From contig NZ_KB892705.1 in assembly GCF_000373905.1 (NCBI RefSeq), forward strand, positions 3,019,184 through 3,083,183: a stretch of 64,000 nt of DNA. The letters are read 5' to 3'. The notes beneath the pieces were generated by a model that was not told the DNA's origin, searched no databases, and saw only the letters and a program-made list of their open reading frames with translations. Shown here piece after piece: positions 16,787-52,469 of this stretch. Numbering within the stretch: the first letter of the stretch is position 1; each line of letters opens with the position of its first letter. The position numbers were made by a program, and so were the translations under genes. Source of the stretch: Mycobacterium sp. 155 (GTDB taxonomy: Bacteria > Actinomycetota > Actinomycetes > Mycobacteriales > Mycobacteriaceae).

Positions 16787-18436
16787 ATGAGTGACGGCCC
16801 GCTGATCGTGCAGTCCGACAAAACGGTGCTGTTGGAGATCGACCATGCCCAGGCCGGCGCGGCGCGCGCAGCCATCGCTCCGTTCGCCGAGCTGGAGCGC
16901 GCGCCCGAACACGTACACACCTACCGCATCACGCCGCTGGCGCTGTGGAACGCCCGCGCGGCCGGCCACGACGCCGAGCAGGTGGTCGACGCGCTGGTCT
17001 CGTTTTCCCGTTACGCCGTCCCCCAGCCGCTGCTGGTCGACATCGTCGACACCATGTCCCGCTACGGGCGGCTGCAGCTGGTCAAGCATCCGGCGCACGG
17101 GTTGACCCTGGTGAGCCTCGACCGGGCGGTGCTCGAGGAGGTGCTGCGCAACAAGAAGATCGCGCCCATGCTGGGTGCCCGCATCGACGATGACATCGTG
17201 ATCGTGCACGCCAGTGAACGCGGCCGGGTCAAGCAGATGCTGCTCAAGATCGGCTGGCCCGCCGAGGACCTGGCCGGCTATGTCGACGGCGAGGCGCACC
17301 CGATCGCGCTAAAGCAGGACGGCTGGGAACTGCGCGACTACCAGGAGATGGCCACCGACTCGTTCTGGGCCGGCGGCTCGGGCGTCGTGGTGCTGCCGTG
17401 TGGCGCGGGTAAGACGCTGGTCGGTGCCGCGGCGATGGCCAAGGCCGGCGCGACGACGCTGATCCTGGTCACCAACACCGTGGCGGGCCGGCAGTGGAAG
17501 CGGGAGCTGGTCGCCCGCACCTCGCTGACCGAGGACGAGATTGGCGAGTACTCCGGAGAGAAGAAGGAGATCCGCCCGGTCACCATCGCGACATACCAGG
17601 TGATCACGCGGCGCAGCAAAGGTGAGTACAAGAACCTGGAGATCTTCGACAGCCGCGACTGGGGTCTGATCATCTACGACGAGGTCCACCTGTTGCCGGC
17701 CCCGGTGTTCCGGATGACCGCTGACCTGCAGTCTCGACGCCGTTTGGGATTGACCGCGACACTGATCCGCGAGGACGGCCGGGAGGGCGACGTGTTCTCG
17801 CTGATCGGGCCCAAGCGCTACGACGCGCCGTGGAAGGACATCGAAGCCCAGGGCTGGATCGCCCCGGCCGAGTGCATCGAGGTCCGGGTGACGATGACTG
17901 ACAACGAGCGGATGATCTACGCGACCGCCGAGCCCGACGAACGCTACAAACTGTGCTCCACTGCGCACACCAAGATCGCGGTCGTGCGCTCGATCCTGGA
18001 ACGTCACTCCGGCGAACAGACACTGGTCATCGGCGCGTACCTCGACCAGCTGGAGGAACTCGGGCAGGAGCTCGATGCGCCGGTGATCCAGGGGTCGACG
18101 AAGAACTCCGAACGTGAGGCGTTGTTCGACGCGTTCCGCCGCGGCGAGATCTCCACCCTGGTGGTGAGCAAGGTGGCGAACTTCTCCATCGATCTGCCGG
18201 AAGCGTCTGTGGCCGTTCAGGTTTCGGGAACCTTCGGATCGCGCCAGGAGGAGGCGCAGCGGCTGGGCCGACTGCTGCGGCCGAAGGCCGACGGCGGTGG
18301 TGCGGTGTTCTACTCCGTGGTTTCGCGCGATTCCCTGGACGCAGAATACGCCGCGCACCGACAGCGGTTCCTCGCCGAACAGGGCTACGGGTACATCATC
18401 AAAGACGCCGACGATCTGCTGGGGCCGACGATATAG
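16787..18436 (+). CDS. ercc3: DNA repair helicase XPB (ERCC3 homologue)
   Basis: 549 residues, superfamily 2 helicase. The N-terminal third is the XPB damage-recognition-type domain. Walker A is PCGAGKTLVG (about 204-213), Walker B is YDEVHLLPA (Asp298 region), then motif III TATLIRED, the RED element typical of XPB, and the C-terminal QEEAQRLGRLLRPK motif VI. Such enzymes unwind DNA 3' to 5' with ATP. It is the counterpart of Rv0861c. The start is ATG 16787 with GAGGAG upstream. Confidence 0.95.
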   Translation: MSDGPLIVQSDKTVLLEIDHAQAGAARAAIAPFAELERAPEHVHTYRITPLALWNARAAGHDAEQVVDALVSFSRYAVPQPLLVDIVDTMSRYGRLQLVKHPAHGLTLVSLDRAVLEEVLRNKKIAPMLGARIDDDIVIVHASERGRVKQMLLKIGWPAEDLAGYVDGEAHPIALKQDGWELRDYQEMATDSFWAGGSGVVVLPCGAGKTLVGAAAMAKAGATTLILVTNTVAGRQWKRELVARTSLTEDEIGEYSGEKKEIRPVTIATYQVITRRSKGEYKNLEIFDSRDWGLIIYDEVHLLPAPVFRMTADLQSRRRLGLTATLIREDGREGDVFSLIGPKRYDAPWKDIEAQGWIAPAECIEVRVTMTDNERMIYATAEPDERYKLCSTAHTKIAVVRSILERHSGEQTLVIGAYLDQLEELGQELDAPVIQGSTKNSEREALFDAFRRGEISTLVVSKVANFSIDLPEASVAVQVSGTFGSRQEEAQRLGRLLRPKADGGGAVFYSVVSRDSLDAEYAAHRQRFLAEQGYGYIIKDADDLLGPTI

Positions 18437-18559
18437 CGGCGCGTTCAGCCCGGCGAGCAGACGCCACGGTCCCAAAATCTCGGCGCGTCGGGGACTTTCG
18501 TGTCTCAGTGTCATTGTGAGGGTGCTGTGTTGCGGTGTGTCGAGGTGACAGACCCCGCG

Positions 18560-18735
18560 TGCGGTGGTTGGTTCCGGATCATCTGGTGTCTGGCTCATTT
18601 CGCGTCTGCCGCCCCTTTTTTGGGGGGTTGGCGTTGAGCAGTAGTGCCGGCACCAGATGAGAAGGACCGGACGGCGCGACTTGATAGGAGCGTGGCATCG
18701 CCCCGACTGAGAAGTGTCCGCCGCCCGGCCCAACC
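18560..18735 (+). ncRNA. Candidate bridge RNA of the IS110 element
   Basis: Two stem-loops can be drawn by eye. Loop 1: CATCTGGTG (18580-18588) pairs with CACCAGATG (18651-18659). It encloses TTTCGCGTCT (18598-18607), a GC-rich apical hairpin with a six-T loop, and GAGCAGTAG (18636-18644). Loop 2: CGGAC (18668-18672) pairs with GTCCG (18716-18720). It encloses ATAGGAGC (18684-18691) and ACTGAG (18706-18711). Loop 1 segments correspond to the left and right target flanks, and loop 2 segments to the right and left element ends, as in published IS110 bridge RNAs. Transcript ends are guesses. Confidence 0.75.
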
Positions 18736-18775
18736 TCAATACACCCCCTCTTCATGACTGAAGGAGGCAACCACC

Positions 18776-19846
18776 ATGGTTGTTGTTGGAGCCGATGTAC
18801 ACAAGCGCAGCCACACCTTTGTCGCGGTCAACGAGGTTGGACGCAAGCTCGGCGAGAAGACCGTCAAGGCCACCACCGCCGGGCACCACACGGCCATCAC
18901 GTGGGCGCGCGAGCAGTTCGGCACCGAGCTGATCTGGGGCATCGAGGACTGCCGCAACATGTCCGCGCGCCTGGAACGTGACCTGCTGGGCGCCGGGCAA
19001 AAAGTGGTCCGGGTGCCCACCAAGCTGATGGCCCAGACCCGCAAGTCCGCGCGGGTGAGGGGCAAGTCCGATCCGATCGATGCGCTCGCGGTGGCCCGGG
19101 CGGTGCTGCGGGAACCCGACCTGCCGGTGGCGTCTCATGACGAGACGTCGCGGGAGTTCAAACTGTTGACCGATCGCCGTGATGTCCTTGTAGCACAACG
19201 TACCTCGGCGATCAACCGGTTGCTCTGGCATGCCCATGACCTCGATCCCGAGCGGGCCGCCGCGGTGGGCTCACTCAGTGCCGTCAAGCAGCAGCAGACG
19301 CTCATGGCCTGGCTGACGGAGCTGCCGGGTCTGGTCGCCGAAATTGCCCGCGCAGAGCTGACCGACATCATCCGACTCACCAGCGAGATCAACGCCTTAG
19401 CCAAGCGTTTGGCGGCCAGCGCGCACCGGTCCGCCCCGGCGCTGCTGGAGATCCCCGGCTGCGCGGAGCTGACTGCGGCCAAGATCGTCGGCGAAGCCGC
19501 CGGCGTCACCCGGTTCACCAGTGAGGCGGCGTTCGCCTGTCACGCCGGAGTCGCGCCCATCCCGGCGTGGTCGGGGGCCAGCGCCGGGCAGATGCGGCTC
19601 AGCCGCGCCGGTAACCGTCAACTCAACACTGCCCTCCACCGCATCGCCGTCACCCAGATCCGCATGACCGGCAGCGCCGGGCAGATCTACTACCACAAGC
19701 TGGTCGATGCCGGGAAAACCAAAGCCGCCGCCCGGCGCTGCGTCAAACGCCGCATCGCCCGCCGCGTCTACCAAGCCCTCCGCCGCGACGCCGGCCACCC
19801 CGACCACCAAACCCCCAGTCAGCCGCCACAATCAGCAGCGGCTTGA
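18776..19846 (+). CDS. IS110-family transposase (RNA-guided recombinase)
   Basis: 356 residues. The N-terminal DEDD/RuvC-like domain (about 1-155) has GADVHKRSH with the first catalytic Asp7, GIEDCRNM, and KSDPIDALAVARAVL. The C-terminal Transposase_20 domain (about 215-320) has LLEIPGCAELTAAKIVGE, the HAGVAPIPAWSG block and the Ser-containing ASAGQMRLSRAGNRQL. It is full-length and shows no damage, so the element may be active. The start is ATG 18776 with GAAGGAGG upstream. Confidence 0.95.
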   Translation: MVVVGADVHKRSHTFVAVNEVGRKLGEKTVKATTAGHHTAITWAREQFGTELIWGIEDCRNMSARLERDLLGAGQKVVRVPTKLMAQTRKSARVRGKSDPIDALAVARAVLREPDLPVASHDETSREFKLLTDRRDVLVAQRTSAINRLLWHAHDLDPERAAAVGSLSAVKQQQTLMAWLTELPGLVAEIARAELTDIIRLTSEINALAKRLAASAHRSAPALLEIPGCAELTAAKIVGEAAGVTRFTSEAAFACHAGVAPIPAWSGASAGQMRLSRAGNRQLNTALHRIAVTQIRMTGSAGQIYYHKLVDAGKTKAAARRCVKRRIARRVYQALRRDAGHPDHQTPSQPPQSAAA

Positions 19847-19881
19847 CATAGGAGCTATTGCTCGGCGAGCTTGGTCAGACG

Positions 19882-20226
19882 TCACGCATGCGGGCCGACC
19901 GCTTTCACGACCGTCAGCAGCACGACGGAGTCCTCGAGCGCATGCAAGCTGTGCCTGCTGCGCGGAACAACAATGTGATCACCTGGCGACCCTTCCCAGC
20001 TCGCCTCGGCATTCGCCAACGACACCCGGCCCTCGATCACCTGCAGAGTGGCCTCACCCGGGCTCTCATGCTCATCCAGAGAACTGCCCTCGGTGAGGGC
20101 GATGAGCGTCTGGCGCAATGTGTGCTCATGGCCGCCGTACACGGTGTGTGCACTGCGGCCGCTGTTTGCCGATCGAGCCGCAGTCAGCTGCTGACGGGCG
20201 AGCGCGGTGAGTGAGATCTTCTCCAT
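19882..20226 (-). CDS. Cupin-domain protein
   Basis: 114 residues with a single cupin barrel. GSSLDEHESPGEATLQVIEG is cupin motif 1 with the metal-type His and Glu, and PGDHIVVPRSRHSLHA is motif 2. Small cupins of this type often act in stress responses or as sensors, but no substrate can be assigned. The frame continues upstream past the divergent alcohol dehydrogenase start, so the ATG at 20224-20226 (MEKISLTALARQQL) is chosen. The stop lies 25 bases from the right end of the IS110 element. Confidence 0.82.
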   Translation of the reverse strand: MEKISLTALARQQLTAARSANSGRSAHTVYGGHEHTLRQTLIALTEGSSLDEHESPGEATLQVIEGRVSLANAEASWEGSPGDHIVVPRSRHSLHALEDSVVLLTVVKAVGPHA

Positions 20227-20357
20227 AACCGGATCGTGCCACTCGGGTCCGACGGATTCCGGCGGTCGCCCGGTTAACGCCGAAATCGTGACCTGACCGC
20301 CCGCGCGGGTACGGTCAGAACTTCCCGGCGAGGAACTCCGACGATAGGAGACGCACC

Positions 20358-21371
20358 ATGGCCACGCACCGCGCAGTCCACGTCGATACCGCAGGGGCTC
20401 CTCTGCGATTGGCCGATGTCGAAACCACGTCCCCACCGCCCGGTCACGTACGCATCGACGTGCGGGCCTGCGGGGTATGCGGTACCGACCGGGAGTTCGT
20501 CAACGGCTCGTTCCCGTTCATGACGTGGCCGCTGACGCCCGGCCACGAGATCGCCGGCACCGTCGCCGAATTAGGTAGCGGTGTCGAGGAATTCGGTATC
20601 GGCGATGGGGTCGCCGTCGGCTGGTTCGGCGGCAACTGCAACCACTGTGCACAGTGCCGCAGGGGCCAGTTCATGCACTGTCTGAACGGGCAGGTCCCCA
20701 GCTGGCACTATCCGGGTGGCTACGCCCAGTCGGTGACCGTGCCGGCCACCGCGCTCGCCCGGATCCCCGCTGGACTCTCGTTCACCGAGGCGGCGCCGAT
20801 GGGGTGTGCCGGGGTCACCACCTTCCAGGCGCTGCGGACCAGTGCAGCCGTCGCCGGAGACCGGGTTGCCGTCTTGGGAGTGGGCGGGCTGGGTCATCTC
20901 GGCATTCAGTTCTCGCGCGCCATGGGGTTCGAGACTGTCGCGATCGCCCGGGGTGCAGACAAGGCTGCCGACGCCGAGCGCTTCGGTGCGCACCACTACA
21001 TCGACTCCACTGCCGGCGATGTCAGCGAGGCGCTGCAGCGGCTCGGCGGGGTCACCGTGGTGCTGGCCACCGCCGCGAACTCGGATGCGATCGGCCAGAC
21101 GGTCGGCGGCCTGGCGCCGGGCGGCGAATTGATCGTGATCGGGGTGTCCGGCAATCCCCTTCCGATCAGCCCCGTTCAACTCATCACCCCGGCGCTCAGT
21201 GTCATCGGACACCCGTCGGGCACCGCCTCGCAGATCGAGGACACCATGCACTTCGCGGTGCTCAACAACATCCGTGCGCAGGTGCAGGAATGCCCGCTCG
21301 AAGACGCCGCGAGCGCGTATGCGGCAATGGCCGAGGGACGAGCCCGCTACCGCGGTGTTCTCACCATTTGA
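20358..21371 (+). CDS. Zinc-dependent alcohol dehydrogenase (MDR superfamily)
   Basis: 337 residues. Catalytic zinc ligands are in ACGVCGTD and GHE, and the structural zinc set is CNHCAQCRRGQFMHC. The Rossmann NAD(P) motif is VLGVGGLGHLGIQF (about 175-188). This is the tetrameric zinc ADH type oxidising alcohols or reducing aldehydes. Substrate unknown. It is divergent from the cupin gene across 131 bases and has GGAG upstream of ATG 20358. Confidence 0.92.
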   Translation: MATHRAVHVDTAGAPLRLADVETTSPPPGHVRIDVRACGVCGTDREFVNGSFPFMTWPLTPGHEIAGTVAELGSGVEEFGIGDGVAVGWFGGNCNHCAQCRRGQFMHCLNGQVPSWHYPGGYAQSVTVPATALARIPAGLSFTEAAPMGCAGVTTFQALRTSAAVAGDRVAVLGVGGLGHLGIQFSRAMGFETVAIARGADKAADAERFGAHHYIDSTAGDVSEALQRLGGVTVVLATAANSDAIGQTVGGLAPGGELIVIGVSGNPLPISPVQLITPALSVIGHPSGTASQIEDTMHFAVLNNIRAQVQECPLEDAASAYAAMAEGRARYRGVLTI

Positions 21372-52404: not shown

Positions 52405-52469
52405 CCCGCGAGCAGACGTCAAAGCACCTGACACGCCGGGTTTCCGGGACCTTGGAGTCTGCTCGCGGG
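52405..52469. repeat. GAGCAGAC inverted-repeat intergenic element
   Basis: CCCGCGAGCAGAC (52405-52417) and GTCTGCTCGCGGG (52457-52469) are perfect 13-base inverted arms around a 39-base centre. It lies between the convergent oxidoreductase and pstB genes. A related left arm (GCCCGGCGAGCAGAC, 18448-18462) lies after ercc3, next to the IS110 insertion, so the element is dispersed. Confidence 0.85.

Follow-up and report, generated by a model that had tools for sequence, protein, structure and literature searches.

The question raised by this locus is how a mycobacterial insertion sequence finds its site: whether an RNA encoded at its 5′ end reads both the ends of the element and the sequence that it interrupted, and at which nucleotide the exchange falls. 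The element occupies 18505-19858 of the plus strand of the window (the whole 64-kb stretch of DNA that was analysed), is 1354 bp long and runs from TCAGTG to ATAGGAGCTAT; its limits are defined by eight genomic copies, intact palindromes and empty orthologous sites of related copies. The transposase ORF (356 aa, 18776-19846, plus strand) matches PF01548 (E=4.5e-24) and PF02371 (E=2.2e-21), both over the cut-off, and these DEDD (RuvC-like) and IS116/IS110/IS902 C-terminal domains together are the hallmark of the IS110 family. The protein is similar in sequence to those of the IS621 and ISCro4 structures; candidate catalytic residues E57, D99, D102 and S266 fall within the stretches displayed by the IS621 alignment, and D7, assigned from a motif, is presumably another. 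IS1111 elements have their long non-coding region downstream of tnp and IS110 elements upstream; here, 271 nt (18505-18775) lie upstream and 12 nt (19847-19858) downstream, the IS110 arrangement. A helicase-like ORF ends at 18436, left of the element, and a 184-aa minus-strand ORF ends at 19882 on its right, where the crude ORF caller favoured a short plus-strand ORF.

The 4.6-Mb host genome contains eight copies of the element with 99-100% identity. All eight, extracted with their flanks, interrupt the same kind of palindrome at one nucleotide, and since the flanks outside the palindrome differ among them, they are separate insertions. Each occupied site reads, in order, GAGCAGAC, arm, loop, arm, GTC, element, TGCTC. 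In the window, the left arm, the loop and most of the right arm (GAGCAGAC...GTC^, with the caret marking the cut) lie at 18455-18504 of the plus strand, with the left target (LT), CTTTCGTGTC, at 18495-18504; the remainder of the interrupted palindrome, the right target (RT) TGCTCG, lies at 19859-19864 of the same strand. The genome (G000) also carries 37 palindromes with perfect caps, GAGCAGAC...GTCTGCTC, which are 55-58 nt long and dispersed, and an intact, unoccupied copy is found within the window at 52410-52464. A search of the genome for TTTCRYGTCT followed by 0-10 nt and GCTCG retrieved 12 matches, all spacer-free and within palindromes, two of them being the other arm of an occupied palindrome. 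A related pattern was matched 11 times in 60 genomes of the genus: ten matches read GTCTGCTCG (three of these in the own genome), and the eleventh lay outside a palindrome; the surroundings were viewed for seven of the 11, three matches in G007 and one in G009 being known as the matched string only. Since the intact palindromes read GTC^TGCTC, the right flank before insertion was TGCTC and not CTATTGCTC, and CTAT (19855-19858, plus strand), the last four nucleotides of the element, arrived with it. Of the insertion site named in the original prediction, the left part therefore stands, while the right part has to be replaced, CTAT being element and the right target being TGCTC (19859-19863). 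The sequence GTCTTCTAGCTCG in G010 was considered as an excision scar and rejected, as it does not lie within a palindrome.

The palindrome is dispersed, intergenic and multicopy, and in this sense only is REP-like; REP elements are described as having, at one end, an unpaired tag that reads GTAG or CGTC (PMC3733652, as excerpted). The palindromes tend to sit close behind gene ends: with a crude ORF caller, the neighbouring genes were convergent at six, co-directional at five and without a clear call at four of 15 intact palindromes examined out of the 37, and convergent at four of the eight occupied sites. At 29 of 29 sister loci, the palindrome was missing within 125 nt past the gene, so there is no orthologous empty site for the copy in the window.

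Such sites were found for three related copies. The gene at the L028 site has orthologues in 29 loci of other genomes without the element; the empty site in a close relative (L064) reads TACCGTCGAG^TC-ATG, and the occupied one TACCGTCGAG^TCAGTG ... ATAGGAGAAAC^TC-ATG. Empty counterparts of L030 read TAGTATCAGG^CCATG in two sister loci and TAGGATCAGG^CCATG in a third, those of L055 read, for example, TAGTCTCAGC^CCATG (sister locus L126), and the occupied right ends of both copies read AAAC^CCATG. At all three sites the left end of the element is TCAGTG, the element adds ATAGGAG plus four nucleotides, and no target base is duplicated; the terminal four nucleotides are missing from the empty orthologous sites, which thereby locate the crossover. 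An arrangement with a TT core in the donor and a CT core in the target was dropped, since the empty sites of L030 and L055 place the crossover one base earlier. For the L055 site, 23 of 30 loci were counted, the others being occupied (L124), out of register (L125) or matched inside the gene only (L135, L144, L148, L151 and L153).

The 5′ non-coding DNA had been predicted to encode a bridge RNA of two stem-loops. An Rfam scan of 17500-20800 gave no match. An alignment of 32 relatives and pair counts bear the prediction out. The stems and the donor loop are conserved among the 32 relatives and the target guides are variable. A structure of 31 pairs, named from the same sequences on which the pairs were counted, is 93.4% paired, and in eight of the pairs both partners have changed; not one of 500 shuffles was as good, and slid versions of the structure were 20-43% paired. 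The strand of the window itself folds with z=-3.3. RNAalifold alone recovered the target loop and mispaired the donor loop, and pairs were therefore counted on a structure named by hand. The target loop (18580-18659, plus strand) is closed by an outer stem, CATCTGGTG/CACCAGATG (18580-18588/18651-18659), which is 100% paired in the relatives. The donor-binding loop (18664-18731, plus strand) is weaker: pairing in its stem amounts to 85%, two positions being open in most relatives and a third in eight of 32, and the short stem CGGAC/GTCCG proposed before gives way to the longer GGACCGGACGGCG/CCGCCGCCCGGCCC (18664-18676/18718-18731). Covariation, which had been suggested as a check on the stems, is thus seen in both, less strongly in the donor stem. 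The alignment also revealed some 30 extra nucleotides near the left end (window 18511-18550) in L009, L010, L159 and L178, which are missing from L155 and L156 of the same palindrome group; in L214, the left end and the LTG (left target guide) part of the bridge RNA are duplicated in tandem, which looks like the joining of an element end to the guide sequence of the element itself (TTAGATTGGC).

All strings on which the guides had been based are present: TTTCGCGTC(T) at 18598-18607 and the left flank TTTCGTGTC(T) at 18496-18505, GAGCAGTAG at 18636-18644 and CTATTGCTC at 19855-19863, ATAGGAGC at both 18684-18691 and 19848-19855, ACTGAG at 18706-18711, CTCAGT at 18504-18509, and the stem CATCTGGTG/CACCAGATG. 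We assign the plus-strand segments as follows, from sequence, alignment and covariation. The left target guide (LTG) would be ATTTCGCGTC (18597-18606), the first base of which is unmatched in all eight copies, and the right target guide (RTG) GAGCA (18636-18640), which can pair with TGCTC of the target top strand. Since CTAT is the element end, GAGCAGTAG is a composite of GAGCA and GTAG, the latter (18641-18644) being a putative handshake guide (HSG) complementary to the terminal CTAT with one G-T pair; what had been taken for a second target guide matching nine nucleotides of right flank comprises five nucleotides of target and four of element end. The concept comes from IS621, in which handshake guides do not pair with the strand of the partner until exchange has taken place (PMC11208158, as excerpted). 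In the donor loop, the left donor guide ATAGGAG(C) (18684-18691), near-invariant in the 32 relatives, is identical to the right end at 19848-19854(19855), and the right donor guide ACTGAG (18706-18711) is the complement of the left end (C)TCAGT. The expected orientation, with a same-strand first guide and a complementary second guide, is thereby supported.

The fit of LTG to LT in the window copy is imperfect (8.0 of 10), with one C-versus-T mismatch that cannot wobble; six of the eight copies have an A one base earlier instead, where the guide G can pair as G-T. Counting itself and the flank, TTTCGCGTC has 12 occurrences with at most one mismatch on the two strands of the window, of which one lies exactly at the element edge. 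The match between guide and flank exceeds chance: it recurs in 8 of 8 copies and over 40 guide sets. Occupied arms scored 7.5-9.0 of 10 against LTG (n=8), and 26 of 74 unoccupied arms reached at least 7.5, so that occupied arms match better (Fisher P=5e-4, Mann-Whitney P=2e-4); the 74 are the arms of the 37 perfect-cap palindromes, with degenerate palindromes left out.

The guide sets came from a survey of the genus in which 88 of 396 genomes contained a transposase match at E<=1e-90. Among the matches listed, chiefly above ~60% identity, 102 loci were parsed, 93 of them with both ends; one scan placed three of six loci, most of those named, in Mycolicibacterium. The permutation set comprised 85 rows, 81 unique, with 40 distinct guide sets; L013, L158, L170, L178, L199, L206, L235 and L236 were dropped (guides unparsed, wrong left end or N), and L157 repeats L009. 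Over the 40 guide sets, LTG scored 8.32 of 10 against its own LT (permuted, 5.34), RTG scored 4.47 of 5 against its own RT (permuted, 2.83), and HSG scored 3.65 of 4 against the element end (permuted, 2.97); in each case none of 2000 permutations was as good, and the same held over the 81 unique guide-site rows. As had been proposed for the window copy, the left and right guides thus follow the flanks actually occupied, and related copies lie at guide-matching sites.

We divided the relatives by their terminal four nucleotides into groups A (AAAC or TAAC), B (CTAT or CTAC) and C (mostly CAAT); the criterion for A, this terminus plus less than 75% identity, is independent of the target. In a tree of 69 proteins, B forms a single clade (100/99), A is set apart from B and C by a weakly supported branch (84/40), and C is not one clade but needs two changes, with L175 and L178 falling with B. 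Groups B and C lie mostly within palindromes; L158 was judged by eye to do so. Several relatives (L227, L230-L232, L235-L239, L221 and L223) sit in other mycobacterial palindromes, with terminal CAAT nearly throughout and targets such as GCGAGCGTGCG...CGCAC^GCTCGC, GCGAGCGACC...^GGTCGCTCGC and similar. L225, L226 and L032 have the target CCCAAACCGAC^(G/A)TTTGG or AAACTG, followed ~17 nt on by GAGTAAATC. Within groups, the LTG-LT signal is significant in A, B and C and the RTG-RT signal in A and C; it is absent within B because RTG is invariant there. LTG adjoins the cut (offset 0) in 30 of 30 rows of B and C; in group A, 48 of 51 rows have it 1 or 2 nt further from the cut.

The handshake letters track the last four letters of the element between classes, with exceptions. 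GTTT accompanies AAAC in 23 of 25 group A sets and GTAG accompanies CTAT or CTAC in seven of seven group B sets; two of eight group C sets pair at all four HSG positions, wobble included, and L032, L237 and L238 match weakly. Among loci outside the permutation test, L206 fits the rule and L178 breaks it (HSG GTTT, terminal CTAT, a poor match). The HSG-end signal was lost within groups, with 122 (A), 2000 (B) and 1373 (C) of 2000 permutations as good, because HSG is near-invariant in A and B and because parts of C show a poor fit.

Taken together, these data make it very probable that the element is an insertion sequence of the IS110 family and transposes through recombination guided by its bridge RNA. 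With ATTTCGCGTC as LTG and GAGCA as RTG, its target-binding loop would read one arm of the dispersed intergenic palindrome, TTTCRYGTC^TGCTC in general form and TTTCACGTC^TGCTC here, and its donor-binding loop would recognise the right-end ATAGGAG and the left-end (C)TCAGT. By recombination, LT would then be joined to TCAGTG and ...ATAGGAGCTAT to RT with target bases unduplicated; the circle junction would be ...ATAGGAGCTAT^TCAGTG, as opposed to ...ATAGGAGCT^CAGTG, and the empty site would differ from GTCTATTGCTC. CTAT, the four nucleotides between the donor-guide match and the crossover, is complementary to GTAG beside RTG, so the target loop could hold the recombined strand after exchange. 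The ends, target, guides and covariation are shown, as far as sequence comparison can do so; the bridge RNA is presumably made, strand exchange would follow this order, and the element may well be active today.

The original prediction had been of a target TTTCGYGTCT/CTATTGCTC, a right guide of 9 nt and, as in IS621, a CT core present in duplicate at the two ends. CT does stand at both junctions and GAGCAGTAG does pair over nine nucleotides with CTATTGCTC, yet unoccupied arms read GTCTGCTCG in 12 of 12 matches in the own genome and in seven of eight in other genomes (the eighth, in G010, being outside a palindrome), the terminal four nucleotides are missing from the empty sites of related copies, and in several species it is the palindrome-group element that carries CTAT or CTAC; we consider this version very unlikely. 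Recognition of the palindrome or a hairpin by the transposase itself, with guide matches as by-products, would suit groups B and C, which sit mostly in palindromes, and was proposed for palindromic REPs before bridge RNAs were known (PMC1525189, as excerpted). It is hardly compatible with the guide-matching targets of group A, which are not palindromes of this kind, with left and right guides that follow their own sites, or with the occupancy of the better-matching arms, and we give it next to no weight. Nor is it at all probable that insertions fall widely and selection retains only those in harmless intergenic repeats: sites do tend to follow gene ends (convergent neighbours at 4/8 occupied and 6/15 intact palindromes by the crude caller), but intergenic selection alone would not place eight of eight copies at one identical nucleotide.

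The preferred reading, guidance by the bridge RNA, can be followed further in group A, whose targets include a start codon. The cut falls exactly 2 nt before ATG (38) or GTG (17) in 55 of 56 rows, which include the repeated sites L171/L172, L177/L195 and L163/L196; the exception, L013, is a distant copy in a Micrococcus MAG. Of these start codons, 51 of 55 begin a frame that has at least 60 codons or reaches the end of the examined stretch. Most of these relatives have CATGG, CATGC or CACGC as RTG, followed by GTTT at the guide place, with targets such as CCATG, GCATG and GCGTG and the element end AAAC. TANNNT ends 3-6 nt before the cut in 50 of 55 rows, compared with 1 of 18 at the corresponding place in group B and 0 of 15 in group C. 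In empty sites, TANNNT ends 5-7 nt ahead of the start codon (28 of 29 loci for L028, 23 of 23 for L055), and AGGAG, GGAGG or GAAGG was found in the 16 nt before the start in none of the 52 empty orthologous sites at the two places. The empty sites examined thus look leaderless; in M. tuberculosis, 26% of genes with a primary start site are reported as leaderless (PMC3898074, as excerpted). Insertion places AGGAG at a distance of 6 nt from the start codon, right behind the transposase stop codon (TGA), ATAGGAG at the right end (19848-19854, plus strand, in the window element) being Shine-Dalgarno-like in this group.

It seems likely, though less so than guidance itself, that group A is programmed for the grammar of leaderless genes. 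Its guides would read the -10 box and the start codon, and the element would hijack the promoter so that the bridge RNA starts at its own left end. AGGAG would turn the displaced gene into a Shine-Dalgarno gene whose expression is kept. The window element would then represent a related, palindrome-aimed branch in which the terminal four nucleotides and the handshake guide changed together. That the target promoter drives the bridge RNA and that the displaced gene stays expressed are, for group A, what we infer from this arrangement. No sigma-70-type promoter was found in 18400-18900, and palindrome-group elements showed no recognisable promoter for the bridge RNA. TANNNT, the only promoter type looked for at RE-LE junctions, is lacking in 88 of 88.

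Comparison with known systems is made here with the excerpted text of the cited papers. With IS621 of E. coli (PMC11208160, PMC11208158), the element shares an upstream bridge RNA with target and donor loops, guide orientation and handshake guides, a DEDD + serine transposase and insertion into a palindromic repeat (REP). The layout is not, as had been stated, exactly that of IS621. The left donor guide here ends 3-4 nt before the crossover, whereas that of IS621 reaches the core; the donor guide ATAGGAGCGTGG is nearly constant while the terminal four nucleotides vary between groups, so guide and core are not contiguous. Nor is there a fixed CT core common to target and donor at the crossover: in the palindrome copies and in L028 the two disagree at the base 5′ of the cut, and in L030 at the base 3′ of it. 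Further differences are an apparent length of 4 nt for the handshake segment and the lack of a -10 box (TANNNT) at the circle junction. ISPa11, ISPpu9 and ISPpu10 likewise interrupt a REP in every counted copy (6/6, 7/7 and 7/7; PMC1525189, PMC8450116), ISPa11 at one position, as here (PMC1525189), but these are Pseudomonas REPs, whereas both element and palindrome here are mycobacterial. IS900 of M. avium subsp. paratuberculosis is a mycobacterial IS110 element whose target motif contains CATG, like group A; its motif CATGN6TCTCCTT (AAGGAGAN6CATG on the other strand), however, contains a Shine-Dalgarno-like stretch, in contrast to group A, in which the examined empty sites have a -10 box and no Shine-Dalgarno sequence and AGGAG is supplied by the element (PMC8141618). 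ISEc21, the seekRNA system, resembles the element in its upstream RNA, unduplicated target bases and the natural redirection of a relative by guide changes, and differs in having another target and a promoter formed at the circle junction (PMC11187229). Among the matches listed in open-licence PMC, no literature other than IS900 papers was taken to deal with IS110 targeting of start codons or leaderless genes, and no paper on the palindrome was found there.

Alone, the window element is of an already known type, an IS110 element in a palindrome like IS621 and ISPa11. What appears to be new is how the donor is laid out, that handshake guide and element end change together, and that its relatives target genes that look leaderless. 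The relatives provide a natural series: a single conserved bridge-RNA scaffold is directed to pairs of -10 box and start codon as well as to several palindromes, and the letters that vary are those of LTG and RTG and, jointly, those of the handshake guide and the terminal bases of the element. The suggested donor layout, in which the terminal bases would be read only after exchange, may provide a useful rule for IS110 recombinases, and the start-codon group offers a test case for whether a transposon can avoid harming its target gene by bringing along the translation signal that is missing from leaderless genes.
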